From assembly GCF_001017175.1 (NCBI RefSeq), contig NZ_LCYG01000014.1:1-64000 (forward strand): a stretch of 64,000 bases of DNA, written 5' to 3'. The notes beneath the pieces were generated by a model. The model saw only the letters and a list, made by a program, of their open reading frames with translations. It made no database searches and was not told where the DNA came from. This DNA comes from Microvirga vignae. Lineage in GTDB: Bacteria; Pseudomonadota; Alphaproteobacteria; Rhizobiales; Beijerinckiaceae. Positions within the stretch are counted from its first letter, which is position 1, and each line of letters starts with the position of its first letter. The position numbers and the translations under genes are program-made. Positions 7,322-44,290 of the stretch are shown here, in pieces.

Positions 7322-7335
7322 GCTTGCGCGAAGGT
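7322..7335 (-). promoter_or_regulatory. shared motility element upstream of flhA
   Basis: Read toward flhA the sequence is ACCTTCGCGCAAGC. It matches the 14-bp element found before the other motility operons in this window and ends 51 bp before the flhA start codon. The match is seen directly; a role as regulator site or promoter part is inference. Confidence 0.55.
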
Positions 7336-7395
7336 CGCCTCGCGTCTCGCTAGCCTCTTGCTCCTTCGCAGCAGCTTCTCAGGGTCTGGATTACT

Positions 7396-7662
7396 CTAGA
7401 ACCCTGTAACAATTCGTCCGTAGACCAGTTCCGTGAAGGCATAGATCTGGGATCCAACCAGCGATCCGGTGAGAAGCGTGACGACCAAGATAGCAATAAT
7501 CTTGGGAATGAAAGTCAACGTGACTTCCTGAATCTGGGTCAGAGCCTGGATCAGGGCGATCACAATGCCAATCACCATCGCGGCCAAGACCGCTGGCCCG
7601 GAGCCGATGATGACGGTCCAAATCGCCGCACGAACCAGCTCAAGAGCGTCAATCTCGTTCAT
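7396..7662 (-). CDS. fliQ: flagellar export gate protein FliQ
   Basis: This 88-aa protein has two membrane segments, the normal FliQ architecture, with the conserved ALTQIQEVTLTFIPKI stretch between them. FliQ packs around the FliP-FliR pore. It is the last gene of the flgE-flgK-flgL-flaF-flbT-flgD-fliQ operon, in the order known from rhizobia. flgD ends 2 bp before its start. Confidence 0.95.
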   Translation of the reverse strand: MNEIDALELVRAAIWTVIIGSGPAVLAAMVIGIVIALIQALTQIQEVTLTFIPKIIAILVVTLLTGSLVGSQIYAFTELVYGRIVTGF

Positions 7663-7664
7663 TG

Positions 7665-8060
7665 TCAGCTGATCACGATGCCGGGGCCAAGCAGGATCCG
7701 GTCTCCATTCGCCAATTTGGCAACGGCGCCGTCGCTGGTGATCATTACTGATTCCACTTTTCCCTTAACGGCGCCGTCGGCCGTGGATATCGTCCGCCCG
7801 ATCACGCTGTCCGCCTGAGACAGAGCGAAGGATGAAAGAAGGGCATCGAGCTTCTCGTTGCTCTTCACGGTCTGTTCGACCTGAGAGAACGTTGCCAGCT
7901 GAGCCATGTACTCCGTCGATTTCATCGGATCCGTAGGATCCTGGTTCCTCATCTGCGTCATCAGCAGCTTCAGAAAGTTGTCGTAGCTAACGGTAGACGT
8001 CTTCTCGCTGGCAGATGTCTGCTGACTGTAAGACGCAGATGAAACGGAACTGACATTCAT
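7665..8060 (-). CDS. flgD: hook cap (hook assembly scaffold) protein FlgD
   Basis: This 131-aa protein carries the FlgD N-terminal domain: YDNFLKLLMTQMRNQDPTDP followed by EYMAQLATFSQVEQ. The C-terminal Ig-like/Tudor part of enteric FlgD (total about 230 aa) is largely missing. A short FlgD is known in alphaproteobacteria. It caps the growing hook and is shed before filament growth. It lies between flbT and fliQ. Confidence 0.93.
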   Translation of the reverse strand: MNVSSVSSASYSQQTSASEKTSTVSYDNFLKLLMTQMRNQDPTDPMKSTEYMAQLATFSQVEQTVKSNEKLDALLSSFALSQADSVIGRTISTADGAVKGKVESVMITSDGAVAKLANGDRILLGPGIVIS

Positions 8061-8074
8061 TTCTCGTCTCCGGA

Positions 8075-8497
8075 TTAAGCAGCCTTTTCGGGCATCACCA
8101 CGCTTGTGGATGCAGGTTGGGATTCCACATTCTCGAAGAGCTTCCTGATCACCTTAAGCGCTTCGAAGGTTCGCTTGCGGGCGACAAGATCTCCGACATT
8201 CTTCAACTGAGCCTTTGTGGTCTCATCGGATATGACCACGAGCAGAGCGTCATAGATCTTATGGAAGGCTATCATCCCCTGCTCCTCTTCCCGAGGATTG
8301 ATGAGGAGTGCTTGCACCACGAAGTAAAGCTGCCGCATCGGCGTCGTCGCATCTGCCAGCTGGAGCACATGGCTTTCCAGAAGAAACCGGGCATCGTTGA
8401 GAAGGCTCAAAGTGACCTTCTGGCTCACTGTCAGAACGGCACCATTGATGAAAATCCGTTCGCCGGCCTTGAGAGAGAAACGCATTTTCGCAGTCAT
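8075..8497 (-). CDS. flbT: flagellin synthesis repressor FlbT
   Basis: This 140-aa protein is a typical FlbT, with RFSLKAGERIFINGAVL at the start and the helix around ATTPMRQLYFVVQALLINP. In Caulobacter and Brucella FlbT controls flagellin mRNA translation or stability together with FlaF. It overlaps flaF by 4 bp. Flagellin genes themselves are not in this window, so they must lie elsewhere in the genome. Confidence 0.93.
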   Translation of the reverse strand: MTAKMRFSLKAGERIFINGAVLTVSQKVTLSLLNDARFLLESHVLQLADATTPMRQLYFVVQALLINPREEEQGMIAFHKIYDALLVVISDETTKAQLKNVGDLVARKRTFEALKVIRKLFENVESQPASTSVVMPEKAA

Positions 8498-8841
8498 TTC
8501 AGGCCATCCTTGATGAGGACGTTGATGTCGATAAGAGCACTGAGATTATTGTGCTCGCCGCGAACGACGAGATCGGATTCTTTCATCACCCAAAGGCCGA
8601 TTGAGATCAGCTGGCCTTTCAGTTTGTCGGGCAGTGCATTCTCGGGATGCCCAAGATCCTTGATCAGAAAGGTCCAAAGGCGCTGGAGAAAGACGATTGC
8701 GCCGAGCATCTCCGGAGATTGAGACGGATACCCCTCTGCTGCACGCAAGAGGGTGATGGCGCGTTCGAAAAGATCGTATTCGCGTTGCCGGCAGTCTTTC
8801 GGCGAATCCTCGAGAATTTCAGAGTAGGAGAACTGATACAT
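8494..8841 (-). CDS. flaF: flagellar biosynthesis regulator FlaF
   Basis: This 115-aa protein matches the FlaF family by length and by features such as the N-terminal YxYSEI region, the REYDLFERAITLL helix and LQRLWTFLIKDL in the middle. FlaF promotes flagellin synthesis or secretion and acts opposite FlbT in alphaproteobacteria. It is positioned between flgL and flbT, the usual order. Confidence 0.92.
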   Translation of the reverse strand: MYQFSYSEILEDSPKDCRQREYDLFERAITLLRAAEGYPSQSPEMLGAIVFLQRLWTFLIKDLGHPENALPDKLKGQLISIGLWVMKESDLVVRGEHNNLSALIDINVLIKDGLK

Positions 8842-8858
8842 TTACATTTTTCCTGCCG

Positions 8859-9893
8859 TTAAAGGAAACTGATCAAGCTCAGTCGATTGAGCTGCGCAGT
8901 CAGCGAATACGATGTCTGAAGCTGGGTCGAGAGCTGATCGACTCGAACCTTCGCTTCAGCTGGATCAATAGCCTCGTAGTTAGTGATCCTCTCCTCGAAA
9001 AACGTTTTCTGGAGGCTCATCCGCTCATTGGCGTCATCGATCTTTCGCTGGGCCGTTCCAAGGTCGGCCTGGAGTTCGGTCACCCCGGAAACGCCACCGC
9101 CGAGCGTCCCGACGACCCTGTCGAGCAGGTATGATCTCGTCTGGTCGTTGAGCCTTTCAATCCCGAGATCAAAGGTCATCACATAGGCCTTCGCCAACTC
9201 CCGGAAAGCGGTTTCGTTTGCGTTGGCGGATGTTTCGACCCTCTGGGTCGGAGAAATCAGGCTTTGGATGTTTTGATCCGAAGCGTTGGACCATGTGCCC
9301 TCCCACTGGTTCTCAAAGAGGTCCGCGAGAGGCCCATCAATGAAAGCCTGCATCTGGGCGGGCGTGATGTCCGCCACCCGGGGATCTGTCTGCGGAAAAG
9401 TGAAGTGGGTCAAGAACGCCCCGTTGACGGCCGTTTGAAAGCCGTCCTCATAGGCTTTGAGGGGCCCGACTTTGGAATTCACGCCACCGAACAGATACTG
9501 GCTTCCGACATTCTCATTCAGATTCGCGATCAGCTTGTTCAGGCCGGCCCGGGCCTGGCTCTGGATGAGGGGAACATCCTGCGCGCCCACATGCATTCCG
9601 ATCAGCGCATTCTTGAAATTGTCGGCCCCGCCGCGAACCTGGTCGAGAGCTGCCGAGGTCGATCTGAGCCGGAGCGTCGCCGACGTGTTGCTGTCCGTCA
9701 AGGCATCAAGAGAGGCTCTTTCCTGACGGAGGGAAAGCGACTTCCCTGTCTTGCGTCCAAGCGCCAGGCCGACATCCATATGGCGTCCGGTCACGACTTC
9801 CTTGTTGGCCTTCACGAGCTCGGACTGGAGCTTGTCGAGCGTCGATCTGGGCGAATTCCAGAGCGTGGTGGAGGAGATGAACGTTGTCTTCAT
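8859..9893 (-). CDS. flgL: hook-filament junction protein FlgL (HAP3)
   Basis: This 344-aa flagellin-like protein starts with the helical region TTLWNSPRSTLDKLQSELVK and ends with a helical tail (STQLQTSYSLTAQLNRLSLI), as expected for HAP3. It forms the second junction ring between hook and filament. It lies 3 bp downstream of flgK. Length is typical of rhizobial FlgL. Confidence 0.93.
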   Translation of the reverse strand: MKTTFISSTTLWNSPRSTLDKLQSELVKANKEVVTGRHMDVGLALGRKTGKSLSLRQERASLDALTDSNTSATLRLRSTSAALDQVRGGADNFKNALIGMHVGAQDVPLIQSQARAGLNKLIANLNENVGSQYLFGGVNSKVGPLKAYEDGFQTAVNGAFLTHFTFPQTDPRVADITPAQMQAFIDGPLADLFENQWEGTWSNASDQNIQSLISPTQRVETSANANETAFRELAKAYVMTFDLGIERLNDQTRSYLLDRVVGTLGGGVSGVTELQADLGTAQRKIDDANERMSLQKTFFEERITNYEAIDPAEAKVRVDQLSTQLQTSYSLTAQLNRLSLISFL

Positions 9894-9896
9894 ATC

Positions 9897-11345
9897 TTAA
9901 CCCACGGAATTGAGGAGCGTCTTGAGCATCTGATCGATCACGGACATCAGCTTTGCGGACGCTGAGTAGGTTTTTTCCAACTGCAGCATGAGGGCGGTTT
10001 CATCGTCCATGTTGACGTCCGTGGCGTTCGAGAGCGCCTCGGATGCCTGCGCAAGCAAGGTCTCCTGATAATCCACCTGCTGGGATGCACTCTTGCGTTC
10101 AGCCTCGAGCCAGCCAGCTGACGACGATGCGAAGTCCTGCAAGGACATCTTGTCGCCAAGTCCGAGGCTCGGATCGAAAGCACGATCAGCCTGGACGGCC
10201 TTGACCAATTGATGAAGACGGGTCGAAAACGATGCGGTTCCGTCACCATAGGTGTAATCAGCACCGTTGATTCCGCCATCGCGAATCTTCTCGAATTTCC
10301 CGCCTTTGGACGGATCGACCCTATCATCGACCTGGATCAGCCCGGCAAGACCTGCCGGCGCCATTGTCGGAATGTTTGGCCCACCGCTGTACGTGAAAAC
10401 ACCAGCCAGATTCGGTTTTCCAGCCCCGGTTTTATCGTACTCGGCAAAAGCCTCGATCAAACCACGGGCCAACTCGTCGAGCTGTTTCTGATATTGAACG
10501 GCTGCATTGTCCCGCAGCTTGACGAGACCAACGAGATTGCCGGAATTCAATGGCATCGGAGATGAGCTTCCAGTCACCGGAATCTCATCGATGAGGATCG
10601 CCCCCCCGGGTTTTCCTGCTGCCAGAGCGGTTGATTCGTATCTAACGCTGCGCGGCAATCTGTCGAAGAGCGCCACCCCGCTATCGGTATAGATGGCGAT
10701 GTCATTGTCGGTTCTCGGGACGACGGTAATTCCAATCTCTTCGGAAAGCTGCGCGATGAGACTGTCTCTCGTATCGAGAGCATCCGTCACGTCTCGCCCA
10801 AGAGCGGTTCCGCTTACCACTTCATCGTTAGCAATCTTGAATTTCGCCAGAATATCATTGATCCGGGAAACCGAGTCGGCAATCTGGACTTGCGTCTCCT
10901 GTCGGATTGCGTTGATGCTTGACGTCGCCTGATTCAAACTCGTCGCAAGATCCGACGCAGTCTTCACGAACCCGCGAGCCAGCACAGTGTCGTCAGGCGC
11001 GTTCGCATACTGCTTCAAGGCATTGTTCAAGGCACCAATGCGGGCAGCAGGAGATTCATCCAGCTCCGGATCGCCGATCGTCTGGCTCAGCCTCTGGAGT
11101 CCTTCGAGCAGCGACTTCTGAGTGGCTGCATCCGAAGTCGTCTCCAGCATCTTGTTCAAAAGCGCTCTGTCGCTGGCTCTGAGCACCGTCACGCGAGCAG
11201 CACCGCCCGTCGTGACGAGCGCGCCGATCTTGCGCGAATATGCAGGATCCGACGCTCCAGCGGTATTGCGGGAGACAATCGCCATCTGCGACTGAGATGC
11301 CTGCAACGAGGAACGGGCCGTATTATAGGCGACCGAAAGTGACAT
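9897..11345 (-). CDS. flgK: hook-filament junction protein FlgK (HAP1)
   Basis: This 482-aa protein has the FlgK N-terminus (SLSVAYNTARSSLQASQSQM then NTAGASDPAYSRK), the D0 segment of rod/hook-family proteins. The C-terminal helix contains SASAKLMSVIDQMLKTLLN. It is the first junction ring at the distal end of the hook. It sits between flgE (30 bp upstream) and flgL. Confidence 0.95.
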   Translation of the reverse strand: MSLSVAYNTARSSLQASQSQMAIVSRNTAGASDPAYSRKIGALVTTGGAARVTVLRASDRALLNKMLETTSDAATQKSLLEGLQRLSQTIGDPELDESPAARIGALNNALKQYANAPDDTVLARGFVKTASDLATSLNQATSSINAIRQETQVQIADSVSRINDILAKFKIANDEVVSGTALGRDVTDALDTRDSLIAQLSEEIGITVVPRTDNDIAIYTDSGVALFDRLPRSVRYESTALAAGKPGGAILIDEIPVTGSSSPMPLNSGNLVGLVKLRDNAAVQYQKQLDELARGLIEAFAEYDKTGAGKPNLAGVFTYSGGPNIPTMAPAGLAGLIQVDDRVDPSKGGKFEKIRDGGINGADYTYGDGTASFSTRLHQLVKAVQADRAFDPSLGLGDKMSLQDFASSSAGWLEAERKSASQQVDYQETLLAQASEALSNATDVNMDDETALMLQLEKTYSASAKLMSVIDQMLKTLLNSVG

Positions 11346-11375
11346 GTTTCGAGCTCTCGAGGATGACCTAAACCG

Positions 11376-12854
11376 TTACCGCTTCAGATTCATGAGAACG
11401 TCGAGCAGTTCGGAGCCGGTTTGGAACACTTTCGAGTTGGCCGTGTAGCTGGTCTGCGCCTCGATCATGGCCGTCAGCTCGGTGCCGATATCAACGTTCG
11501 ACCCCTCAAGTGCCCCGGAGGTCACAGATCCAAAGGCACCGGTCTCCGGGAAACCAACTTGGTAGCCACCCGAGCTTGCAGTCGTCTCGTAAACGTTGCC
11601 CGCACGAGGAGAGAGATTATCCGGACTAGGCACAGTTGCCAGGGGGATCCTATAGGCGGCGACACGCGAGCCGTCCTCGTAGACGGCATAGACGGTGCCA
11701 TCGGAGGCGAACTCGGCGCTCTTCACGGCCGATGGTCCGTTACCGTTGGCCTGGCCGGTGACCGAGTAATCGCCCGCGAGCTGCGTCATACCCGACATGT
11801 CGAGCGTAAAGGGTTGCCCTTTAGGGATGTCGAAACTCAACGATTTAGGACCGATGAGTTGCCCCAGGTCGTCGAATGTCATCGTGTTTGGTCCATCCAG
11901 CAGAGTGGAGCCGTTATAGACCGCGATTTCCCAAGTCTTCTCTCCGGTCCTCTCCAACTGGATATCGAGCTTCACCGGATTTCCGACATTGTCGAACACC
12001 TGGAGAGAGGAAATCTTTTTGGCTGGCGTCATATCCGTAAAGGAGCCTGTGACGTTCGTGGCGCCGGTCAGGTCATCGGACGTCAGCACGAGATTGCCGG
12101 TGGCCGGATCCTTCGACGCCTGAACGCCGCTGAGCGTGCCAGCGGTGACGGCTGCGTTAATCTTTGTGACCAGATCATCCACGGTTGCTTCTGTCGTCAC
12201 ATTGAAGGTCTGAGTGGGGCCGCCACCGACAGAGAACTGGATCGTGTCCCGGGGAGACAGATTCGAGATCTTGATATCGACATAGCCAGGCACCGGGGGC
12301 GCCAATGTTCCGGGATGCGCAGTACCAACCACCTCCTTAGTGGCGTATGGGAGATTCCCTTTGAATGTGCCTGCAGTCGAACCAGCGGCCTGCATGCCGA
12401 AATCGCCCATGTTGACCGGAACGACGTCGTCGAGACTGTTCAAGGACGGATCGACCCCAATCTTATAGCCCATGAGCGTGAAGCCGGCTGCATTGACGAG
12501 GTTGCCGGTTCGGCCATCGGGCACGAAGTTTCCGGCGCGCGTCAGGTAATTGGCTCCACCCGGATCCGATACGACGAAAAAGCCGTTGCCGGAGATCGCC
12601 AAGTCCGTCGCCGAGGTCGTGTAAGCGATCGGCCCCTGATCGCCGATCGTATAGCGCACCCTGCTCGTGACCGACCCCGAATTGTAGTTTCCCTCGCTGG
12701 ACGGAAGGATCAGAGACGAGAACTCAGTCGAGGCACGCTTGTAGCCAGTCGTGCTCGAGTTCTGAATATTCTCGGCAACCGTTCCCAGCTTGTTCGACTG
12801 AGCGTTCATGCCGGACACGCCGCTGCGAAGGACACCATAGAGGCTCATGTACAA
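11376..12854 (-). CDS. flgE: flagellar hook protein FlgE
   Basis: This 492-aa protein has the rod/hook N-terminal motif (LRSGVSGMNAQSNKLGTVAENIQNSSTTGYK, residues about 10-40) and the C-terminal FlgE signature with SNVDIGTELTAMIEAQ and YTANSKVFQTGSELLD. The central hook domain is Thr/Gly rich, as is usual. An AGGAG motif lies 7 nt before the ATG. It is the first gene of the hook and junction operon, preceded by the shared element at 12890-12903. Confidence 0.95.
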   Translation of the reverse strand: MYMSLYGVLRSGVSGMNAQSNKLGTVAENIQNSSTTGYKRASTEFSSLILPSSEGNYNSGSVTSRVRYTIGDQGPIAYTTSATDLAISGNGFFVVSDPGGANYLTRAGNFVPDGRTGNLVNAAGFTLMGYKIGVDPSLNSLDDVVPVNMGDFGMQAAGSTAGTFKGNLPYATKEVVGTAHPGTLAPPVPGYVDIKISNLSPRDTIQFSVGGGPTQTFNVTTEATVDDLVTKINAAVTAGTLSGVQASKDPATGNLVLTSDDLTGATNVTGSFTDMTPAKKISSLQVFDNVGNPVKLDIQLERTGEKTWEIAVYNGSTLLDGPNTMTFDDLGQLIGPKSLSFDIPKGQPFTLDMSGMTQLAGDYSVTGQANGNGPSAVKSAEFASDGTVYAVYEDGSRVAAYRIPLATVPSPDNLSPRAGNVYETTASSGGYQVGFPETGAFGSVTSGALEGSNVDIGTELTAMIEAQTSYTANSKVFQTGSELLDVLMNLKR

Positions 12855-12879
12855 CTCCTGCGAATTCGAGTGGAAGCTA

Positions 12880-12903
12880 ACACAAGGATGCTTGTGTGAA
12901 GCT
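12880..12903 (-). promoter_or_regulatory. shared motility element and dyad upstream of flgE
   Basis: The 14-bp element, AGCTTCACACAAGC when read toward flgE, occupies 12903-12890 and ends 35 bp before the flgE ATG. A perfect inverted repeat overlaps it: ACACAAG (12880-12886), GATG, CTTGTGT (12891-12897). A dimeric regulator could bind such a dyad. The stem has no T-tract, so a terminator for fliI is less likely. Confidence 0.55.
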
Positions 12904-12941
12904 GGGGGAGAGATGAAGCGCGCGTGGATGCCATGAGGACA

Positions 12942-14261: not shown

Positions 14262-14269
14262 GCCGTTGA

Positions 14270-14995: not shown

Positions 14996-15100
14996 CCGGA
15001 AACTCCATACAGTCAGACGGCCGCCCATGGCTCAGGTCGATATTCCGCTACGCGTTGGCTGGGCAGCCTGGTCAATTTCCAGTCTGCTGTACCAGGACAG

Positions 15101-15114
15101 CCTTGCATGAGGCT
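15101..15114 (-). promoter_or_regulatory. shared motility element upstream of flgF
   Basis: Read toward flgF the sequence is AGCCTCATGCAAGG, identical to the copy before flgB. It lies 105 bp before the flgF start, farther than at the other operons. It faces away from a second copy at 15130-15143 that points to motA, with 15 bp between them. Confidence 0.5.
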
Positions 15115-15129
15115 TGCCTCCCCCGTCCC

Positions 15130-15143
15130 AGCTTCGCGCAAGC
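15130..15143 (+). promoter_or_regulatory. shared motility element upstream of motA
   Basis: The plus-strand sequence AGCTTCGCGCAAGC fits the element consensus and ends 52 bp before the motA start codon. It is the only copy on the plus strand and precedes the only rightward flagellar operon. This supports a directional site rather than chance. Confidence 0.55.
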
Positions 15144-15195
15144 CTCCACGATTAGGAAATCTCCAAGAATTGATCTCTCGCGAAGGACTACAAGA

Positions 15196-16077: not shown

Positions 16078-16079
16078 TC

Positions 16080-27735: not shown

Positions 27736-27787
27736 AAAGGATCTCGGCGAAAGTGAATCGTGTCGAGATACCTTTCTGCTCGGTCAA

Positions 27788-27801
27788 CCTTGTGTGAAGG
27801 T
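27788..27801 (-). promoter_or_regulatory. shared motility element upstream of fliF
   Basis: Read toward fliF the sequence is ACCTTCACACAAGG, and it ends 52 bp before the fliF start. It is the centre of a perfect inverted repeat, CAACCTT-GTGTG-AAGGTTG (27785-27803 on the plus strand). The fliP stop lies 50 bp upstream, so the same stem could also affect the end of the upstream transcript, but there is no T-tract. Confidence 0.55.
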
Positions 27802-27854
27802 TGCTCCTGGACGGGCAGGTGCAATGTCGAGGAACCGCTTTTCCGAGAGGGGCG

Positions 27855-33980: not shown

Positions 33981-34001
33981 CATGCAACCTTGCATGAGGC
34001 T
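33981..34001 (-). promoter_or_regulatory. shared motility element and dyad upstream of flgB
   Basis: Read toward flgB the element is AGCCTCATGCAAGG (34001-33988), identical to the flgF copy, and ends 45 bp before the GTG. A perfect inverted repeat, CATGCAA-CC-TTGCATG (33981-33996), overlaps it. The octamer CAACCTTG on the plus strand is shared with the fliF copy. Confidence 0.55.
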
Positions 34002-34417
34002 GACTTGGCCAGTTCGGCACGTTGCAGGTGGAGATAAGCCAGCCCTGAATTTCTCGGTGCTCGCTGAACGGAGCACAATCGTTGAGAGAAATCGCGAACT
34101 AAGCGTTTAACGTTATATTGTTGATTTGCACTGCCCTCTATCAGGACGTTCTAGCGATGCAATGCCGCATTTCCGCCAATTGATTTTTGCCTCAATGCAA
34201 GCATGAAGGGATCTAGCGCTCAGCAAAGACGCTTAAGCCCGGGGGCCGTGCATGATGCACATCGATGCTTGTTGTGAGATCTTGAAGAAGCAGTTCAAGC
34301 TGTCTACGACCTCGACCTGAAGCGGCATGGGTGCAGGCTCCTCGGTCATCGGGCAGCCTGACCAGAGGCACTCTCTATCTTTCATCTTCGGATTTGCTGA
34401 TCAGGAGAATATGCCCA
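34002..34417. other. intergenic region between flgB and the fixJ-like gene
   Basis: I see no gene here. The left end carries the upstream side of the flgB promoter region. An AT-richer patch with TTTAACGTTATATTG lies around 34107-34121. A possible ribosome site for the downstream regulator (AGGAG at 34403-34407) is at the right end. No terminator-like stem with a T-tract is evident. Confidence 0.5.
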
Positions 34418-35038
34418 ATGTCGAGCGGGGCAATCGTTTATGTGGTCGATGATGATCTTGGTGTGCGCAAAGCGCTATCCTTTCTATTGGTCTCTGCCGG
34501 CTTGAATGTCCGCTTGTACGAGTCTGCGACCGCCTTCCTGCGAGAGGTGGCGGATCCGGGTCGGTGCTGCATTGTAACAGATGTCAGAATGCCGGGGATC
34601 GACGGGCTGGAATTTATCAGGCGCCTCAATGAGCGAGGGCTTAATGTGCCTGTCATCGTCATGACAGGTCACGCTGACATCCCTCTTGCAGTCGAAGCCA
34701 TGAAGGCAGGCGCCATCGACTTTTTGGAAAAACCGTTCCGTGAGGACCGTTTTCTTGAGGTCGTCCGTTTTGCACTCGTCTGTGATGAGAAAAGCGTTCG
34801 GCGGAGCCAGGAACTCCTCAGAACCCAAGCTCGTCTCCAGTCCCTGACGCAGCGCGAACGCCAAGTCCTTGACTGTCTGGTCGCAGGCAAGGCCAATAAA
34901 GTGATTGCCCATGAACTCAACATCAGCATCCGAACGGTTGAGATCCATCGATCCAATGTCATGGCTAAGATGGAGGCTCGAAGCCTTTCCGAGTTGATTC
35001 GGATGGCCCTGTTCATCGAAGCCACAGTGGGTAACTGA
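34418..35038 (+). CDS. FixJ/NarL-type response regulator with LuxR-family HTH
   Basis: This 206-aa protein has a receiver domain with Asp11-13, phospho-acceptor Asp55 (IVTDVRMPGIDG) and the conserved Lys in FLEKPF. The C-terminal LuxR helix-turn-helix is LTQRERQVLDCLVAGKANKV and SIRTVEIHRSNVMAKM. Length and spacing match FixJ. AGGAG lies 10 nt before the ATG. No kinase is adjacent; a FixL-like kinase lies 15 kb away at 49465-51987. Whether they form a pair is unknown. Confidence 0.85.
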   Translation: MSSGAIVYVVDDDLGVRKALSFLLVSAGLNVRLYESATAFLREVADPGRCCIVTDVRMPGIDGLEFIRRLNERGLNVPVIVMTGHADIPLAVEAMKAGAIDFLEKPFREDRFLEVVRFALVCDEKSVRRSQELLRTQARLQSLTQRERQVLDCLVAGKANKVIAHELNISIRTVEIHRSNVMAKMEARSLSELIRMALFIEATVGN

Positions 35039-35141: not shown

Positions 35142-37934
35142 ATGCCCGCTGCTAGATGCATTCTTCCGATCCCGGCCGACAATGGTGCCGATGAGCCGTC
35201 CGGGGTCGACAGCACCCAATACATTGTTTCAAACAACAACCGTTGGTCACGCATCACCCTGAACTTTGAGGGTCTCGACAGCGATGGCTGGTTTGACCTG
35301 AGCTTTCAACTCGACTGGAATCCACAAGAGGAGAACAGGGCCGTCTACGATTTTGCGGCCATCGGTTTCGATTTCCTCATGGAGGATGGATCAAGTGTCG
35401 ATTTCGCTTATGTGCCTGGACTGACAAGAAACCAGATCGATCCTCACAGCTGGTACATTGGCGGTCCGGATTGTAACGGCAGTCACAACGGCCCTGCGCA
35501 GCCTGGTAAGGTATCCTGTACGTTCTTTGTCCCTTCGCCTACCAGGAAGCTGGCCATATCGGTTCGAAGCTGGCGCAACTCCCACCCCTTCACCATTCGC
35601 GATCCGAAGCTGTTTCAGACTGCCTGTCCCGCCTCATTGCAGGATAGCGGCTTGAACGAAGCCGATCGGGCTCATCAGACGAGTGCTCCTGAATCGTTCA
35701 ACGCTCGTCGAGCATGGCGAACTCTCACTGCCGAGCCTGTCTGGTATAAATATGCAGTGCGTCCGGAACACCAACTCCTGGTGCGCGGACAGATCATCAA
35801 TGAGAATCCGGGTGGCGAAGGAGCCCTGGCCCGCATCGTTTATCGCAATGCGAAAGGAGAGGAACTGCCTCCTCCCTATCCTGATATAGCGGTAGCGCCA
35901 TCCATTGGAGCCTTCATCGACATTCCCATCCACCGACAGGCTAGGCGCTTTACGCTGGATCTCGTTCCTCCGCCGGGAGCAGCAAGCATCGAGATCGGCT
36001 TTCAGACCTGGCATGCTGAACCCAGAATGGAGCTGGTCGTCCCACTCGAAGTGTCCCTTGGAGACGAGCTTCTGCTTGAGAACATCTCAGGCGACGATCT
36101 CCCCGATGCTCGGGCCTTCGTCCATCAGGCTTTAGCGAAGCTCGGTCTCGAGCTGCCGTTCGGAGGCTCTCAAGTCAACTCTGCTATCTTCAAGCAGTGT
36201 GTCGATCCGGAAGCATTACGGTCGCCTTTCACATTTCACCACAAGCTCAAATCTGTGCAGTGGGGTGCGCGCACGACGTTCAATGCGGATGAGCTTGTTC
36301 TCAGCAACTTCCCATCATGGCGTCTCCCCGAAGCACCCAAATGGATGGAAGACCCATTCCATTCCTTGGCATGGAGACTGGAGTTTCAGTCTCTATCCTG
36401 GCTTGTCGATGTTGCAAACGGGACGGAAGCCGGAGGTCTCACGCGCGCAACCGATCTTGCGGTTTCATGGTCGCGAGCCAATCCCTGGGGACATGCTCAG
36501 GATCCGATCAGCGCTCACCCCTTGTCTCTTTCCGCCCGCACCGAAGCACTGCTCACTCTCCTTTCCTTAAGCGCGGGATCGCAACAATCCGCTGCCTTTG
36601 AAAAGAGCTTCATTCTCTTTTCCGAGATCGTGCGCCATGCCTTTGCTCTGGCCCAACTTGTGAGTCAGAACGTTTTTGCGCATTCGGTTGTTCATATCCA
36701 TGCCGCCTGTGCTCTTCTCTCAGCAGCGCGTGCACTCCCCAAGTTTCCCTTAGCTTCTTACTGGAGCTCTGTTGCCCTCCCACAAATTCAGGAAGGCTTT
36801 GACCGGCTGATCGACCGCGAGGGCGGGTTTGTTGAACAATCCCTGCACTTCCGTCTGGAGACTGTCTCACTGGGGCTCATCCTCGCTCGCATGCTCGGCG
36901 ATATGCCCGAGACGCGCGAGTTTCACGACGAGCTGATCGCTCGTCTCAGGAAAGGGCTCCAGAGCATCGTTTCTGCCACTGACCCTTCCGGATCGCTTCC
37001 ACCCTTCGGCGATGCACCGCAAGGATACCATCATGCATCATGGCTGCGACGGCTACTGTCGGTTTACGGAACGACCTTGCTCTCGGATCCGGCGCTTGCC
37101 GCAGCCCTGTCGTATCCGACAGGAAAAAAGGTATTCTCCTTACCAAATGCAGGCTTGATCACGGCGCGCCATTATGAGCGGAATGCCCATTGGAGCTATT
37201 TCTGCGCATCGTTAAACGGTCACCACTCGGAACATGGCCATTCCGATTGCACCTCCTTTGTCTACTCCGCGGGTGGTGCGAGCTGGATTGTCGACCCCAA
37301 AGGCTCGGACTTCTACGAGGCAGGATCGGCTCGTCAGTATCTCGTCTCCGCCAGGGCGCACAATCTTGCCATTCCAGATGAACGTGAACCAACCGCTGGA
37401 ACGGCCTGGATTGAAGCACATGAGACGCTTGAAGGCGCTAACCTATTCCAGATAGGCACAAATGTTCACGGTCATGACTATGATCATCGCCGCATCATCG
37501 TGTGCCTGGATAACTTGCACGCAGTCGCATTGTTCGATCATTTCACGACCCAGGCGAGGCCCGTCTCTTTCGAAGGCCTCCTGCACTTCGACCCCAAAGT
37601 CACTGCGGCCATTGCGAGTTCGCGGCTGGGGATCGGCTATCGTAAAGATGGCAGGCTGCAGATCATTCCGCATGTGCTCAAAGGCCAGTTCTCTGGCATG
37701 AGCATAGACAACGGACGAAGCGATAGACCGACCGCGCTCCAGGGATTTGTAGCACAGCCGACGGGAGGGCTGCAGCCGGCCAGCGTCCTCCGTTATCGGT
37801 TCTCTGGCCACGGAACTGTCTGCGGTGGAGTCGTGCTTGCCACCAGTGAGCGATCGGCCGGTACTCTCGCAAACCTGCTAAAAGCGACGGCTGTCAAGAA
37901 CCTGTTTCAGCGCCTGTCGACGGCAGTCTCATAA
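35142..37934 (+). CDS. heparinase II/III-like polysaccharide lyase family protein
   Basis: This 930-aa protein has an N-terminal beta-rich region of unknown type (about residues 30-340). An alpha-helical middle contains HFRLETVSLGLILARMLGD. The C-terminal heparinase II/III-like domain has YFCASLNGHHSEHGHSDCTS followed by WIVDPKGSDFYEAGSARQYL. Such enzymes cleave or modify acidic polysaccharides. I see no signal peptide, and the start ATG lacks a good ribosome site, so export is uncertain. It is flanked by motility genes but has no obvious link to them. Confidence 0.8.
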   Translation: MPAARCILPIPADNGADEPSGVDSTQYIVSNNNRWSRITLNFEGLDSDGWFDLSFQLDWNPQEENRAVYDFAAIGFDFLMEDGSSVDFAYVPGLTRNQIDPHSWYIGGPDCNGSHNGPAQPGKVSCTFFVPSPTRKLAISVRSWRNSHPFTIRDPKLFQTACPASLQDSGLNEADRAHQTSAPESFNARRAWRTLTAEPVWYKYAVRPEHQLLVRGQIINENPGGEGALARIVYRNAKGEELPPPYPDIAVAPSIGAFIDIPIHRQARRFTLDLVPPPGAASIEIGFQTWHAEPRMELVVPLEVSLGDELLLENISGDDLPDARAFVHQALAKLGLELPFGGSQVNSAIFKQCVDPEALRSPFTFHHKLKSVQWGARTTFNADELVLSNFPSWRLPEAPKWMEDPFHSLAWRLEFQSLSWLVDVANGTEAGGLTRATDLAVSWSRANPWGHAQDPISAHPLSLSARTEALLTLLSLSAGSQQSAAFEKSFILFSEIVRHAFALAQLVSQNVFAHSVVHIHAACALLSAARALPKFPLASYWSSVALPQIQEGFDRLIDREGGFVEQSLHFRLETVSLGLILARMLGDMPETREFHDELIARLRKGLQSIVSATDPSGSLPPFGDAPQGYHHASWLRRLLSVYGTTLLSDPALAAALSYPTGKKVFSLPNAGLITARHYERNAHWSYFCASLNGHHSEHGHSDCTSFVYSAGGASWIVDPKGSDFYEAGSARQYLVSARAHNLAIPDEREPTAGTAWIEAHETLEGANLFQIGTNVHGHDYDHRRIIVCLDNLHAVALFDHFTTQARPVSFEGLLHFDPKVTAAIASSRLGIGYRKDGRLQIIPHVLKGQFSGMSIDNGRSDRPTALQGFVAQPTGGLQPASVLRYRFSGHGTVCGGVVLATSERSAGTLANLLKATAVKNLFQRLSTAVS

Positions 37935-38013: not shown

Positions 38014-38042
38014 GTGGATGCCCAACTGAATCGGGCATCCAC
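38014..38042. terminator. bidirectional stem-loop between heparinase-like gene and cheZ
   Basis: A perfect 10-bp stem, GTGGATGCCC (38014-38023) with GGGCATCCAC (38033-38042), encloses a 9-nt loop. It lies between two convergent genes, 80 bp after one stop and 17 bp after the other. The T-runs beside it are short, so it may act as a weak terminator in both directions. Confidence 0.6.
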
Positions 38043-38058
38043 GTTTGAAAAGCGGCAC

Positions 38059-38757: not shown

Positions 38758-38776
38758 GGCTCTTACCGTAATTCGA

Positions 38777-39160
38777 TCATGCGCCGAAGACAGCGCTGAT
38801 CTTGGACCGGAGAGTTTCGGCGTTGAAGGGCTTCACAATGTAATTGTTGACCCCGGCCTTCTTTGCCGCCACGACGTTCTCAGTCTTTGCTTCGGCAGTC
38901 ACCATGATGAACGGCAGAGATCCTAGTTCGGCATCCGCGCGGACCTGCTGGAGCAGCTCGTATCCCGTCATTGGGGCCATGTTCCAGTCAGAAATGACAA
39001 GGCCATACTTCTTGGATCGGAGCTTCTCCAGAGCAGCCTGTCCGTCAGACGCATCATCAACGTCGTTGAAGCCGATCTGCTTGAGCAGATTCCGAAGAAT
39101 TCTCACCATTGTCTGGTAGTCGTCGACGACAAGAACAGGGGTAGAAAGGTCTAGGCTCAC
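38777..39160 (-). CDS. cheY: chemotaxis response regulator CheY (cheA operon copy)
   Basis: This 127-aa receiver domain has Asp13/Asp14, phospho-acceptor Asp58 (VISDWNMAPMTG) and the conserved Lys in IVKPFN. MAPMTG after the Asp is the pattern of motor-binding CheY. It lies next to cheZ and cheW, so it is the likely motor regulator. A second CheY is encoded at 2320-2703. Confidence 0.95.
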   Translation of the reverse strand: MSLDLSTPVLVVDDYQTMVRILRNLLKQIGFNDVDDASDGQAALEKLRSKKYGLVISDWNMAPMTGYELLQQVRADAELGSLPFIMVTAEAKTENVVAAKKAGVNNYIVKPFNAETLRSKISAVFGA

Positions 39161-39209
39161 GGTTGCGTATCCTATTTAGTGAGATGAATGGAATTGATGA
39201 GAACGAAAT

Positions 39210-39707
39210 TTATTGAACCGGGTCCCGCTCGGCTCCGAAGGCAAGAACCGCATCCACATCGAGAACGATCATCAACTCGCCCTGGAGCTGATGCACCCCT
39301 TGGGACAGGTTCACCCAGCGGCGGTCCATATGAACAGGGTTGGGCTGCATCTCGTCAGGATCGAGCTTGAGAACCTCCCCAACCTCATCGACAAGCAAAC
39401 CGTAGGCCTCACCCTGGTTTTCGAGGCCGACCGCCATCCGGCGCCCTGCCTTGCCATCATCCTCAAGGCCCAAGCGGCTGCGCAGCGACACAGCCGTCAC
39501 GACGCGTCCGCGGAGATTGAGCAATCCGGCAATTTCTGCTTGCGCCAATGGCACCTTGGTCATCTCGCTGACCACGAACACGTCATGGACGCGGCCAATG
39601 GGAAGGCCGAGCAACTGACGCGCCACGGTGACGGTGATGAACTCCATCTCCCGAGAGAAGTTTTTGGGTGTTCCGATGGCAACCGTGTTCATGGCATTCA
39701 TGGTCAT
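39210..39707 (-). CDS. cheW: chemotaxis coupling protein CheW
   Basis: This 165-aa protein is a single CheW domain with EFITVTVARQLLGLPIGRVH, then GLLNLRGRVVTAVSLRSRLG and MIVLDVDAVLAFGAE. It couples chemoreceptors to CheA. It overlaps the end of cheA by 4 bp, so it is co-translated. Confidence 0.95.
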   Translation of the reverse strand: MTMNAMNTVAIGTPKNFSREMEFITVTVARQLLGLPIGRVHDVFVVSEMTKVPLAQAEIAGLLNLRGRVVTAVSLRSRLGLEDDGKAGRRMAVGLENQGEAYGLLVDEVGEVLKLDPDEMQPNPVHMDRRWVNLSQGVHQLQGELMIVLDVDAVLAFGAERDPVQ

Positions 39708-42493
39708 GCAGCCTCCTCAAGGGATCCACTGAGTTCCGCCAGAGCAGACAACAATCCTCGACGGTCCACTTTTGAAACGACTTCCGTAATCTTGAAGCGT
39801 CTTGCCAAAGCAATCAGCTGAGGATCGGGCCGCAACGTCAGACCGATGATGGGAATCGACCGGTACTGGGTATCAGCCCTCAGCGTTGCGATGAACGCAA
39901 ATCCGGAATTTCCCGGCAATTCAAGATCGGTCACGATGAAATCGGGCTGAGCGCCGCTCGAAAGGTAACGAGCGGCATCCTGTGCCGTCGCTGCCGTGTG
40001 CACACGATATCCCGACGCCTTGAGAACGGGCACCAGCATGTCACGGAAGAAGTTCGAGCCATCGACGAGGAGCAGCGAATTGCCCTGCTTGGCTCTCTGA
40101 TCCGTGCGAGACCATGTCTCAAGAACCAGAGGCAGGTAATGGGCGATGTTGACGATCTCCGTGGTCTTGCCCCGCACGACTGCCGATCCCACGAGATCGG
40201 ATCGTTCAGCCAGAAGCTCGACCTCGAGCCTGTCTTCGACGATGTCTACGATCTCGGCCACGGCAAGTCCCATCGATATCTCGCCATCCGAGAACACCAG
40301 AAGGGACTGCATGCCCTGCCTCCTGACCTCAAGATCCTCGTCACAGGAGACGATCGGCATGAGACGACCCCGGTATTGCACCACAGGCCGGCCGCTGGCC
40401 CACTCGATCGTCGATGCGTCGATCTCCTCAAGGCGGGTCACCAAGGACAACGGCACAGCCTTCAACGAGTTTCCGCCACCACGGAAGACGAGGAGGCTCG
40501 TCAGTTCTTCCACAGCAGCAATCGCCTGATCGAGTGTCACATCGTTCTGGAACTCGTTGTTTTGTGCCCCTGATCCAACCATTCTCGCAAGGCCATTCGG
40601 GTCGACGATCAGAACGACGGCACCATCGCCGAGAATGGTGTTGCCGGAAAAGAGCTGAATGTGCCTCAGCTTGGACGACATCGGCTTGACCACGATTTCT
40701 TCCGTGTGGAAGACGCCGTCGACAAGAATGCCGAAACGCTGCTGCGCAACCTGAGTGACGACCACAAATCCGGTGTCCACGTCCTCAATCTCAGAGAGAC
40801 GCATCACCTTCGAAAGCGGAACAATCGGCAGCAAGCGCTCACGCAGACGCAAGATCGGCGTCCCGTTGATCCGCTCGATCGAGTGTTCCGATGCGGGCGA
40901 CACTCTGACGAGCTCCGAAACCGCCACCTGCGGAATGGCAAACCTCTGGTCTTTCGACGAGACGATCAGTGCTGCGACGATCGCCAGAGTGAGAGGAATT
41001 TTGATGGTAAATGTCGTGCCCCGGCCTGGCTCGGAGCGGATATCGACCGTGCCGCCGATCAGCTCGATATTCGTCTTCACCACATCCATGCCGACACCAC
41101 GCCCGGACACGGACGTCACCGCGGCAGCTGTCGAGAAACCGGGATGGAAGATGAATTTGCCGACCTGAGCGTCGCTCATCCGCTCGATCTCAACCTCGCT
41201 GACGATGGCTCTCTCGACCGCCTTCTTTCGGATGGCGGCGTAATTCAGGCCCTTGCCGTCATCGGAGATCTCGATCGTGATCGATCCACCCTCATGATAG
41301 GCATTGAGGCGGATGACGCCTTTCTCCGGCTTTCCGGCGGCCCTGCGCTCGGCAGGGCTTTCGATCCCGTGATCCGCAGAGTTGCGGACCATATGGGTGA
41401 GAGGATCCTTGATGACCTCGAGCACCTGCCTGTCGAGTTCGGTATCGGCTCCCTGCATGACCAGATCGATCTGCTTCGAGAGCTCGTTCGAGAGATCGCG
41501 TACGACGCGGGGCAGTTTCTGCCATGCATTGCCGATCGGCTGCATGCGCGTCTTCATCACGCCGTCCTGCAACTCGGCCGTGACCTGAGAGAGGCGCTGC
41601 AGGGGCACCTTATATCCGTAGTCTTCGGAATTGCGACGAGCGATCTCGAGCAGCTGGTTACGAGTCAAGACGAGCTCGGACACCATCGTCATGAGATGCT
41701 CAAGCGTATCGACATTGACGCGGATCGTCTGGACCTTGCCGGCCACACCTTCTCCGCCTTCGCCATGCTCCGATGCTTCCGTGGCACCTTGAGCCTTCTG
41801 AGGAGGCCTGGCTTGTGCAGGTGGCGCAACGACGGCCGGCTTGGCGGGTGCGATTTGATCCGGACCCGGAGCATCTCGAAATGCACGTTCCAGTTCGTCG
41901 AGAGAAACCTCTCCGGGCTTCAGCGCTCTCTCCAGCACCTGATAAACGAGAGTGCCGCTGGTTTCCTCGCTGTCAGGTCCAGGCGCCTCCTGGAAAGCGC
42001 GCTCCAACTCATCGAGAGAGACCTCACCAGGTTTCAACTCGCGTTCAAGCACCTGATGGACAAGCGTTCCCACCGTCGTTGGCTTGGCACGATGCGCAAC
42101 GGGCTCAGGCACATAGGCCCCGGCATTCGACATTCTGTCGAGGGCCTCGATCAGATCGTCATCGGCACCTTGCGGCTCAACGCCATGGCGCTCCAGCTCG
42201 CCCAGGATGTCTTTGATGCGGTCGAGCGTCGTCAGGATCAGCGATACGGCTGACGTTGTGACCGGCATTCCATCACGGAACTTGCCCATGAGGGTTTCGG
42301 CTGCATGAGCCAGCGCCTCAAGTCGCGGGAGTCCGAGGAACCCGCAGGTTCCCTTGATGGTATGCACAAGACGGAAAATGTTGCTGAGGATCGCCTGGTT
42401 GTTCGGATCCTGCTCGAAACGAACCATCTCCACGTCGACCGTTTCAAGATGTTCGCTGGTCTCCGTAAGGAACTCAAGGAGGAGGTCGTCCAT
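39704..42493 (-). CDS. cheA: hybrid chemotaxis histidine kinase CheA with two CheW-like domains and a receiver
   Basis: This 929-aa protein has an Hpt domain with phospho-His44 (RLVHTIKGTCGFLG). No clear P2 is present; a linker with two near-identical 33-residue units follows (residues 142-174 and 180-212). Next come the dimerisation and ATPase domains (MVRNSADHGIESPAERRAAG, GRGVGMDVVKTNIE), a CheW-like P5 and a second CheW-like domain. A C-terminal receiver domain has TDLELPGNSG. The total is about 270 residues longer than E. coli CheA. It phosphorylates CheY and CheB. Confidence 0.95.
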   Translation of the reverse strand: MDDLLLEFLTETSEHLETVDVEMVRFEQDPNNQAILSNIFRLVHTIKGTCGFLGLPRLEALAHAAETLMGKFRDGMPVTTSAVSLILTTLDRIKDILGELERHGVEPQGADDDLIEALDRMSNAGAYVPEPVAHRAKPTTVGTLVHQVLERELKPGEVSLDELERAFQEAPGPDSEETSGTLVYQVLERALKPGEVSLDELERAFRDAPGPDQIAPAKPAVVAPPAQARPPQKAQGATEASEHGEGGEGVAGKVQTIRVNVDTLEHLMTMVSELVLTRNQLLEIARRNSEDYGYKVPLQRLSQVTAELQDGVMKTRMQPIGNAWQKLPRVVRDLSNELSKQIDLVMQGADTELDRQVLEVIKDPLTHMVRNSADHGIESPAERRAAGKPEKGVIRLNAYHEGGSITIEISDDGKGLNYAAIRKKAVERAIVSEVEIERMSDAQVGKFIFHPGFSTAAAVTSVSGRGVGMDVVKTNIELIGGTVDIRSEPGRGTTFTIKIPLTLAIVAALIVSSKDQRFAIPQVAVSELVRVSPASEHSIERINGTPILRLRERLLPIVPLSKVMRLSEIEDVDTGFVVVTQVAQQRFGILVDGVFHTEEIVVKPMSSKLRHIQLFSGNTILGDGAVVLIVDPNGLARMVGSGAQNNEFQNDVTLDQAIAAVEELTSLLVFRGGGNSLKAVPLSLVTRLEEIDASTIEWASGRPVVQYRGRLMPIVSCDEDLEVRRQGMQSLLVFSDGEISMGLAVAEIVDIVEDRLEVELLAERSDLVGSAVVRGKTTEIVNIAHYLPLVLETWSRTDQRAKQGNSLLLVDGSNFFRDMLVPVLKASGYRVHTAATAQDAARYLSSGAQPDFIVTDLELPGNSGFAFIATLRADTQYRSIPIIGLTLRPDPQLIALARRFKITEVVSKVDRRGLLSALAELSGSLEEAA
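41858..42070 (-). repeat. tandem repeat inside cheA (33-residue unit, two copies)
   Basis: The two units lie at 41972-42070 and 41858-41956, with a 15-bp spacer. They encode residues 142-174 and 180-212 of CheA, each built around LKPGEVSLDELERAF, and differ by only a few residues. They occupy the place where P2 usually binds CheY/CheB. Confidence 0.85.
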
Positions 42494-42553
42494 TGCCGTG
42501 TCTCTTGTCTCTCTGGAGTAACTGGTTAGCAGTCGACTGCTCGACGCCTCTCG

Positions 42554-44227
42554 CTATGCAGCCTTGATACCGGACATGAAGTTAGAGAATTCTTGCCCAA
42601 GCCTTGATGTTTGGTGGGCAAGTTCACGGGCTACGCCGAGAAGCTGATTGGCTGCAGTTCCCGTTTCACCAGCGCCCTGCTGCACCAGGACGATGTTGCC
42701 TGTCACCTGCTCGGTTCCCCGCGCCGCTTCCTGGATATTGCGGGAGATCTCGCCAGTTGCGGCTCCCTGCTCTTCCATGGCAGCTGCGATCATGGTCGAG
42801 ATCCGGGACATTTCGGTAATTGTCCTTGCAACATTCTGAATCGCGTTCACGGATTGCTGCGTTGTTTCCTGGATAGCGGCGATCTGTGCCCCGATTTCCT
42901 CGGTTGCCTTGCTGGTCTGCCTTGCGAGGTCCTTCACTTCCATGGCTACCACCGCAAATCCCTTGCCAGCCTCACCGGCGCGGGCAGCTTCGATGGTTGC
43001 ATTGAGAGCAAGCAGGTTCGTCTGGCTGGCAATCGAGTTGATCAGCTGAACAACGGTTCCAATCCGATCCGCGGCCAGCGCAAGCTCCTGAACCGTCGCA
43101 TCGGTCTGCCGTGCCGCCTGCACGGCCTCACTGGCAATTCGCGATGAGTCGGCTGCCTGACTGGCGATCTCGCGGACTGAAATCGACAACTCTTCGGTGG
43201 CAGCGGCAACAGTCTGAACATTCACCGTTGTCTGCTGAGCCGCCGACGCAACGCCGACCGACTGATGGTTTGTTTGGTCTGCAACCACGGACATGGATTG
43301 CGCCGAGACTTCCATTTGAGAAACGGCACTGGAGAGAGACTGCGTCATGGCACTCACATTGTGCTCGAACTGTCGGGTCAGCTCGTCCAGAACCTGGGCT
43401 CTCCGCGCCTTGGTGCTCATCTCCTGCAGGGCAACCTCATCGGCCTCGATTTTCGCAATCATGGCGGCTTTGAACGTCTGAACGGTCTTTGCCATGGTTC
43501 CGATTTCGTCGGGCCGCTCGGTTCCTGGAACCGCCGTCTTCGTATCGCCGGCCGCAAGCGCAGCCATCGCCGAGGTCAAGGATCGAACGGGCCGGACAAG
43601 ACCGCGAGACAGGAACCAGGCAACTCCGATCAGCACCACGATCATGAGAGCCGACCGAAGGGCCGCATTTCGTGCATTCGCCCAGAAGACCTCATCGATG
43701 TCGTCGGTGTAGACGCCCGTGCAGATGATCCATTGCCAGGGAGCAAAGTTGTAGGCATAGCCGATCTTGGGCACCGGCGTGTCCTGACCCAGACGCGGGA
43801 ACTGATAGTTGACATAGCCGCCGCCTCCCCGCCCGGCTTCGACCAGCTCTGCGTGCATATAGACGCCGTTCGCGTCCTTTACCCGTCGCAGATCCTTTCC
43901 TTCATTCTCCGGCTTGCTTCCGTGAACAATCATCCGGCCTGAGGAATCATACGCAAAAAAGTATTCGTTGCTGCCGTAGCGCATGCTTCGAAGAAGCGCC
44001 TTTGCACGCTCTTGCGCCTCCTCCTTCGTCAATCGTCCAGCTTCTGCTTGCTCGGCAAGGCCTTTCATGAGAGAGGCAGCAGCTTCCACTTGGCTGAGAA
44101 CGGAGAGCTTTCTCTCACGAACGATCGCGTTGTCCATGACGAAGAGCTGGGCAATGACCGCGAGAGCGCTGATGATGACAGCAACGGCCACAAGCAAACC
44201 GAGGCGACGGGAGATCGTGAGAGACAT
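42554..44227 (-). CDS. methyl-accepting chemotaxis protein with single Cache sensor
   Basis: This 557-aa receptor has a membrane segment (about 9-30) and a periplasmic sCache_2-type domain ([39 protein letters not shown]). A second membrane segment, a HAMP domain and the signalling domain with [11 protein letters not shown]-like hairpin features follow. Such Cache domains sense small organic acids; the ligand is unknown here. It lies 60 bp upstream of cheA in the same orientation. Confidence 0.95.
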
Positions 44228-44276
44228 AATGACAGACTAGAGTTGGACTTCAGCGTGATTGACCTTAGTGGCCGTG

Positions 44277-44290
44277 CCTTGCGTCAAGCT
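44277..44290 (-). promoter_or_regulatory. shared motility element (one mismatch) upstream of the MCP-che operon
   Basis: Read toward the receptor gene the sequence is AGCTTGACGCAAGG. It agrees with the flagellar-operon element at 13 of 14 positions and ends 49 bp before the start codon, the same distance range as the other copies. This suggests the che operon is co-regulated with flagellar operons. Confidence 0.45.

Follow-up and report, generated by a model that had tools for sequence, protein, structure and literature searches.

The window analysed in this work is a stretch of 64,000 nucleotides from the start of contig NZ_LCYG01000014.1 of Microvirga vignae, a soil alphaproteobacterium of the order Hyphomicrobiales. 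It carries a cluster of motility operons, the gene names of which were checked against profile libraries. An earlier note on this DNA had reported a 14-base pattern, A[GC]C[TC]TC[AG][CT][AG]CAAG[GC], upstream of the flhA, flgE, flgF, motA, fliF and flgB operons and, with one mismatch, upstream of an operon of a methyl-accepting chemotaxis protein (MCP) gene and che genes. We found that this 14-mer makes up the core of a larger site, which comprises 20 bp plus a -10 element and is a tandem direct repeat. The full site, called the box below, is a genuine promoter element of the lateral flagellar regulon, and it is both specific and widely conserved. Neither the 11-bp tandem repeat nor the gene for a Rem/FtcR-type regulator beside the che operon was described in the earlier note.

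Structure of the box

The full site reads GCAAGSYTS-NN-GCAAGSYTS, that is, two 9-bp half-sites arranged head to tail with a period of 11 bp, and a -10-like sequence, NANNNT, begins six bases past the tandem repeat. In the pooled profile, from which two sites with more than two mismatches were dropped (fliF in G001 and flgB in G048), the conserved bases run from -2 to 17 and are followed by an A at base 25. When this profile was matched against itself, the best lag was 11 (0.606 over 9 bases); the next lag gave 0.438 and the best palindrome 0.526. The direct repeat is clearest in the flgF copies. Perfect repeats occur outside the genus, as in G092 and G163 (GCAAGCTTC-gc-GCAAGCTTC). Among 19 unique fliF promoters (of 21 sites outside Microvirga), lag 11 gave 4.89 identities per 9 bases and all other lags 2.68 or fewer, a test that is not fully independent because the matrix used to find the sites itself favours the repeat. 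Five of the 26 lateral-type fliF loci were left out of this test (L240, L241, L248, L250 and L252), and L249 was retained. In two columns beyond the matrix, all 19 of these promoters have A (base 25) and 17 have T (base 29).

A25 and T29 match what is expected at -11 and -7 in the -10 hexamer of a sigma-70 promoter, and activators of the OmpR/PhoB family usually bind direct repeats of 11-bp period that cover the -35 region. On that reading, with +1 assumed to lie 11 nt past the conserved A, the repeat would extend from about -38 to about -19 and overlap the -35 region. The two features of an OmpR/PhoB-type operator, namely two direct half-sites with a period of 10-11 bp and an overlap with the -35 region combined with a -10 at fixed spacing, are both found here at the level of sequence. 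The proposal of the earlier note that the element is an activator site overlapping the -35 region is likewise supported by the -10-like hexamer at fixed spacing. An invariant A at -11 is also known from flagellar promoters of Rhodobacter that depend on CtrA (PMC6180460).

The six window copies and the remaining features are collected in Table 1. Bits and E-values are those of a calibrated profile, and values called matrix scores come from a simple 20-base matrix.

Table 1. Boxes and candidate regulator genes in the window
Feature	Position	Strand	Score or evidence
Box, flhA operon	7319..7338	-	24.3 bits; 14-mer at 7335-7322 plus flanks; -10-like sequence at 7312-7307
Box, flgE operon	12887..12906	-	18.8 bits; position of -10-like sequence shifted by one base
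Box toward flgF/fliI	15098..15117	-	19.8 bits
Box toward motA/fliM/fliG/flhB, divergent from the flgF box	15127..15146	+	23.9 bits
Box, fliF operon	27785..27804	-	21.3 bits
Box, flgB operon	33985..34004	-	23.5 bits
Variant box before the MCP-cheA-cheW-cheY-cheZ operon; first half-site ends in G	44274..44293	-	7.1 bits, E 0.57; matrix score 17.6
Degenerate box about 515 bp upstream of the Rem/FtcR-type regulator gene	45822..45841	-	Conservation in 8 genomes; matrix score 0.5
Rem/FtcR/LafR-type OmpR-family regulator gene, 228 aa; proposed binder of the box	44627..45313	-	Trans_reg_C domain; 54.5% identity to S. meliloti protein
FixJ-like NarL-family response regulator gene, divergent from flgB; rejected as binder	34331..35038	+	

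The 14-base pattern as reported was then compared with the full element. Its six exact copies lie at the positions and on the strands given in the earlier note, and the window contains no other exact match. The site before the che operon (44290-44277) differs, as had been reported, by one mismatch, which is C6 to G, and is the weakest of the seven sites of that note. A TA dinucleotide 9 nt past the element, reported for five of the seven sites, is present in four (flgF, motA, flgB and che); at the flgE site it is shifted one base later, and the flhA and fliF sites have CA at that spot. Exact matches are rare by chance (mean 0.045, maximum 1, in 200 dinucleotide shuffles of the window). When up to two mismatches are allowed, the pattern is weakly specific because the window contains 29 matches versus 17.1 +/- 4.4 expected. 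In the whole genome (6.47 Mb), 13 exact matches were found, six of them within the motility cluster, and one mismatch gave 168 matches versus 100 for the 14-mer read backwards. At least three of the seven exact matches outside the cluster (L001, L010 and L013) lie inside open frames of more than 280 codons; for another of them, L012, the check for open frames left out its own strand. Therefore, the bare 14-mer, which is less specific than the full element, was not used for genome-wide prediction.

Two further observations concern the genes of the cluster. The longest frame of flhA begins at a GTG at 7309, within the predicted -10 region, and translation probably begins at the ATG 13 codons further on. 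A heparinase II/III-like protein of 930 aa is encoded among the motility genes at 35142-37934.

Conservation and specificity of the box in Microvirga

Microvirga carries a lateral flagellar system (PMC6406911). The clusters of 30 of the 41 FliF-bearing relatives in the genus were examined, with gene starts placed by tblastn, and the element was counted when it lay within two mismatches of the 14-mer. Among the genomes with an alignable gene start, it was found upstream of flhA in 27 of 27 (with up to one mismatch), flgE in 11 of 11, flgF in 27 of 27, motA in 29 of 29, fliF in 30 of 31 and flgB in 29 of 30. Genes for which the alignment started beyond residue 30 or showed less than 50% identity were left out, and for this reason flgE is represented by only 11 rows. 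In the fliF upstream regions the element is constant and the flanks diverge. Thus, conservation at the same operons in relatives, a check that the earlier note had set, was found in Microvirga, and it extends beyond the genus as described below.

For searches of whole genomes we used a sequence-only profile of 35 columns built from 65 sites of 13 genomes. In the M. vignae genome this profile gave 17 matches at E<=10. The top seven were the six window sites, which were part of the training set, and a site beside fliJ (E 0.002); the next-ranked match had an E-value of 0.06. The genome-wide scan proposed in the earlier note, carried out with the full profile, therefore ranks flagellar promoters first, with the reservation that the six window sites trained it. 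The eighth-best match (L401, G000:C80:2284-2308, 16.3 bits) has a divergent open frame about 90 nt away, and another frame starts 368 nt after it.

A match at E<=0.02 was found in 43 of 48 Microvirga genomes, including all 42 that bear FliF (13 of these gave training sites and 29 did not). The five genomes without a match at this threshold (G002, G004, G010, G018 and G031) all lack FliF in the assembly. The remaining genome without FliF, G051, is a fragmented assembly of 780 contigs, in which three profile matches were found. In G004, FliF may merely be missing from the assembly, because its completeness is 89%, a flagellin gene sits at a contig edge, and the simple matrix detects the fliJ-side copy (20.8).

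The box precedes most lateral-type fliF genes outside the genus

Outside Microvirga, we used an even draw of 150 genomes of the Hyphomicrobiales. FliF proteins were labelled lateral (E<=1e-110) or polar (E>=6e-78), labels that rest on similarity and on PMC6406911 and not on a tree. Lateral-type FliF was present in 27 of the 150 genomes. Upstream of lateral-type fliF genes from outside Microvirga, several of which come from congeners, the box was found in 21 of 26 at p<0.01 versus shuffles. None of 20 polar-type fliF genes, hand-picked from a longer list, passed the same threshold (lowest p 0.018); four of these 20 come from genomes that also have the lateral type.

At the level of whole genomes, matches at E<=0.02 were found in 18 of 26 genomes with lateral FliF, in four of five others with the regulator, and in one of 20 genomes without the regulator. 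The last were hand-picked from a longer list, and target genes were checked for part of these matches. We also searched 34 loci around the regulator gene (32 from other genera and two from Microvirga), and 24 had a match at E<=5, most between 0.001 and 0.12. The box precedes fliF and motA in Methylobacterium, motA in Pannonibacter, and flgB in an unclassified member (L193). In 13 loci, from Ancylobacter, Aquabacter, Xanthobacter, Prosthecomicrobium and relatives, the match lies before a cheY gene that precedes the regulator gene.

In genomes with the regulator but without lateral FliF, the genes close to matches include a DUF2336 gene and a GGDEF gene. For example, in G163, which has no lateral-type FliF, one strong box lies near a GGDEF/GAF gene and one upstream of a DUF2336 gene (L394 and L383), which hints at targets outside the flagellum.

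A Rem/FtcR/LafR-type regulator is encoded beside the che operon

The product of 44627-45313 contains a Trans_reg_C winged helix (PF00486; E 2.6e-14, 53.5 bits versus a cut-off of 26.2), which places it in the OmpR/PhoB family, and its profile matches solved OmpR-family regulators. Its Response_reg receiver domain is degenerate and scores below the cut-off. In an alignment of 23 homologues, no Asp is found at the phospho-acceptor column, which we take to be that of Asp53 in 1kgs; this column is occupied by Phe52, which is at least 90% conserved. Because the receiver is degenerate and lacks the acceptor Asp, we filed the protein as an aspartate-less relative of this family, like Rem. It is 54.5% identical, over 97% of the query, to the Sinorhizobium meliloti protein in the Rem position, which relates it to Rem, and Microvirga sp. 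KLBC 81 has a homologue of 98% identity.

A homologue was found in 32 of 150 genomes, namely in 27 of 27 with lateral-type FliF versus five of 123 others (Fisher 5e-25, with genomes treated as independent). The lists of lateral FliF and of the regulator come from two draws of 150 genomes, the handles of which agree as far as listed. Like Rem, FtcR and LafR, the regulator is thus encoded together with lateral-type flagellar genes, both in the window and across these 27 genomes.

A second copy of the regulator gene is present in the M. vignae genome (L400, G000:C125:76967-77632, 61% identical), and no profile match above 7.8 bits was found in the 7 kb around it. In several other Microvirga a second copy was likewise found; these copies share 53-56% identity with the window protein.

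Distribution of the box in Sinorhizobium meliloti and Phyllobacterium

In the S. meliloti record, which has a flagellar cluster, two LuxR-type genes occupy the place of visN and visR and a homologue of the regulator that of rem; these gene names are presumptive. The record is labelled pSymB (3.7 Mb) yet carries the flagellar cluster, and was used as deposited. The best matrix score within 300 bp upstream of each gene was taken. High scores were obtained for motA (25.0), the flgF operon (14.3), flgE (14.2) and fliF (12.2), and lower scores for fliN (6.6), the mcp/che operon (3.3), flgB (2.3) and flhB (1.3). Within the same 300 bp, no box was found at the four flagellin genes flaA/B/C/D (-6 to -12), visN (-1.3), rem (-18), fliI (-7.3) or the motB operon (-14); a site of 11.1 lies just beyond 300 bp of the motB operon. 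One strong score does not fit this distribution: a site of 12.0 between flagellin genes (L426, 37660, minus strand).

Rem activates the genes for flagellar assembly and the motor, and the flagellins come later (PMC8429497). CtrA motifs have been predicted before S. meliloti flaA, flaC, flaD and mcpE (PMC3616915). As judged by matrix scores, the distribution of the box in S. meliloti appears to follow the published Rem hierarchy, as expected.

In Phyllobacterium, the scores were 22.8 for the flgF operon, 19.3 for flgE, 15.9 for fliF, 15.0 for flgB, 11.5 for motA and 7.7 for flhA; the flagellin (-1.8), the regulator (-9.3) and flaF (-11.2) had no box by the same matrix. Among sites scoring 2 or more, both A25 and T29 were present in seven of 15 in S. 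meliloti, four of 19 in Phyllobacterium and none of 14 in reversed sequences. The S. meliloti motA site has A25 and lacks T29.

Additional and lineage-specific copies

The che variant is kept in the eight closest genomes (G000, G015, G016, G037, G041, G044, G052 and G053), and no such variant was seen within 700 bp of cheA in 18 other genomes. Partial matches upstream of cheA in G003 and G042 look like coding sequence for the recognition helix of the regulator and were not counted. In the eight closest genomes, the degenerate box upstream of the regulator gene (Table 1) keeps its second half-site, GCAAGATTG (or GCAAGGTTG, GCAAGATTC), and the A at the -11 spacing. It was absent within 700 bp at 10 other Microvirga loci, and it was missed both by the profile, among 30 matches at E<=10, and by the matrix. 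It is a possible autoregulatory site.

The fliJ-side copy, an exact match to the 14-mer, lies between ctrA and fliJ and points to fliJ. Among 19 genomes, it is clear in G000, G015, G004, G013, G008 and G016, weak in G011 and G006, and absent in the other 11. A second repeat, before ctrA (L009, 17.9; L359, G000:C80:19350-20350), was considered and rejected: its distance to the start codon is 23 nt, and a score above 4 was reached at that place in only four of the 19 genomes.

The earlier note had suggested that the box be looked for before flagellin genes. In 20 upstream regions from 19 genomes, a subset of the flagellins listed, the box was found in none of 13 where FliF is at least 77% identical and in four of seven where FliF is at most 74% identical. 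Profile matches also precede flagellins in G092, G124 and G190. In the M. vignae genome and in that of its closest relative, G015, no flagellin-family gene was found besides the hook-associated one (8859-9893). In relatives such as G052 and G044, a flagellin gene lies about 10 kb beyond the hook-associated gene. In M. vignae this place would be just off the end of the contig (C46), which starts at base 1 of the window, and the absence of a flagellin is probably due to an assembly break there.

Discussion

We consider it very probable, from the sequence evidence, that the box is the operator of the Rem/FtcR/LafR-type regulator. This reading is based on the anatomy of the site, its conservation, its specificity for flagellar operons and its co-occurrence with the regulator. 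The element would form the operator part of a class II promoter shared by the genes of the lateral-type flagellum. A head-to-tail dimer of the regulator would bind the two half-sites over the -35 region and recruit RNA polymerase, presumably with sigma-70. By this mechanism one protein could switch on flhA, flgE, flgF-fliI, motA-fliM-fliG-flhB, fliF and flgB, and in some lineages it may also act on che, fliJ, flagellin or its own operon.

Several observations weigh against this reading. The regulator is present at L240, L241 and L248, where no box was found at the lateral-type fliF; L249 and L252 are borderline (p about 0.05), and L250, although counted among the 21 positive loci, has its site at an odd distance and without a -10. 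Eight of the 26 lateral-FliF genomes had no whole-genome match at E<=0.02, and G088, which lacks the regulator, has one with an E-value of 0.004. In S. meliloti, only the motA site passes E 0.01 in the calibrated profile (0.0012), and the flgF operon (0.12), fliF (0.34) and flgE (0.41) do not. In Phyllobacterium, a site inside coding sequence (L427, 5868, minus strand; matrix score 20.4, E 0.0018) equals the best match. All profile E-values rest on a shortened calibration. Co-occurrence by itself cannot single out the regulator because any protein tied to the lateral flagellum would co-occur likewise. Finally, the published Brucella FtcR motif, TGTGGGCA, is not in the pooled consensus.

If the box were instead the core promoter of an alternative sigma factor, with a long -35 element and a -10, no activator would be necessary, and the fixed spacing to the -10-like hexamer and the fixed orientation toward the gene would be explained. 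However, most of the information lies in a 20-bp tandem repeat of 11-bp period, which is longer than a -35 element, and the -10 keeps mainly an A and a T at two positions, as is general for activator-dependent sigma-70 promoters. We therefore regard this explanation as very unlikely. Another dimeric regulator might bind an inverted repeat, CCTT-N5-AAGG, for which some copies, such as that of fliF, are near-perfect dyads and the pooled palindrome score is the one given above. However, fliF promoters keep the right arm fixed and vary the left, and outside the genus the dyad reaches 3.95 of 9 versus 4.89 for the direct repeat, so that such a binder is highly improbable.

Two named regulators were also considered as binders, and for each the chance seems very slight indeed. 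CtrA belongs to the OmpR family, is tied to alphaproteobacterial flagella and drives flagellar promoters in Rhodobacter (PMC6180460); its consensus TAA-N7-TTAAC implies an 11-bp period as well (PMC3616915), and an exact copy of the 14-mer lies between ctrA and fliJ. Nevertheless, this consensus is absent from the pooled one, and Microvirga G002, G010 and G018 have ctrA without fliF and without a box at E<=0.02. Moreover, before S. meliloti flaA, flaC, flaD and mcpE, where the CtrA motifs are predicted, the box is missing or poor. The FixJ-like response regulator divergent from flgB is encoded within the cluster, most relatives have it in their clusters too, and the 14-mer core contains a CTT-N5-AAG dyad of a kind that dimers of the NarL family can bind. 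On the other hand, no homologue was found in the 40-kb clusters of G034, G048 and G057, where only the clusters were searched and the box sites are kept, and the direct-repeat symmetry is better than the dyad symmetry.

The operator proposed for the Rem/FtcR/LafR-type regulator can be compared with known systems. The pho box of PhoB likewise consists of two direct half-sites that lie over the -35 region and repeat every 11 bp; the half-site here is GCAAGSYTS and the regulator lacks a phospho-acceptor Asp, which distinguishes the two. Rem, the class IB activator of S. meliloti, likewise lacks key aspartates (PMC9812332) and is encoded in the flagellar cluster, where the box precedes motA, the flgF operon, flgE, fliF and, weakly, flgB. 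A difference is that the rem gene itself has no box in S. meliloti and is under the control of VisNR (PMC8429497). The accessible literature showed no operator sequence for Rem. FtcR, the OmpR-type master regulator of flagella in Brucella, has fliF and its own gene among its targets; its motif from chromatin immunoprecipitation sequencing (ChIP-seq), compared here as published only, is an 8-mer unlike the tandem repeat (PMC9456535). LafR of Bradyrhizobium diazoefficiens is a Rem homologue that controls the lateral and not the polar flagellum independently of phosphorylation, and the accessible text gives no operator sequence for it (PMC8429497). This control of the lateral flagellum alone matches the split between lateral and polar fliF genes observed here. 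A direct repeat, TTCA-N7-TTCA, has been proposed for FeuP, another S. meliloti response regulator (PMC3616915).

In the literature within reach, which does not include the primary Rem and FtcR papers, no such box is described for Rem, FtcR or LafR. The three new motifs in the accessible text of a study of S. meliloti transcription start sites do not include it (PMC3616915). As far as could be checked, the kind of operator is known, and this member of it is newly defined.

There is, in our estimate, an even chance that one 20-bp operator marks the lateral flagellar regulon across the Hyphomicrobiales, including Sinorhizobium, and that the hierarchy was rewired as copies were gained and lost. 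If this is true, flagellin would be a direct target in some lineages (G092, G124, G190 and one group of Microvirga) and not in others, and che, fliJ, the regulator itself and possibly a GGDEF gene would join the regulon in some. The proposed operator conflicts with the ChIP-derived FtcR motif, and under this hypothesis the published 8-mer would not serve as the flagellar operator. Rem, FtcR and LafR are flagellar master regulators in plant symbionts and animal-associated bacteria of the order. An operator defined by sequence would make their regulon predictable, and direct versus indirect control of flagellin would become testable.

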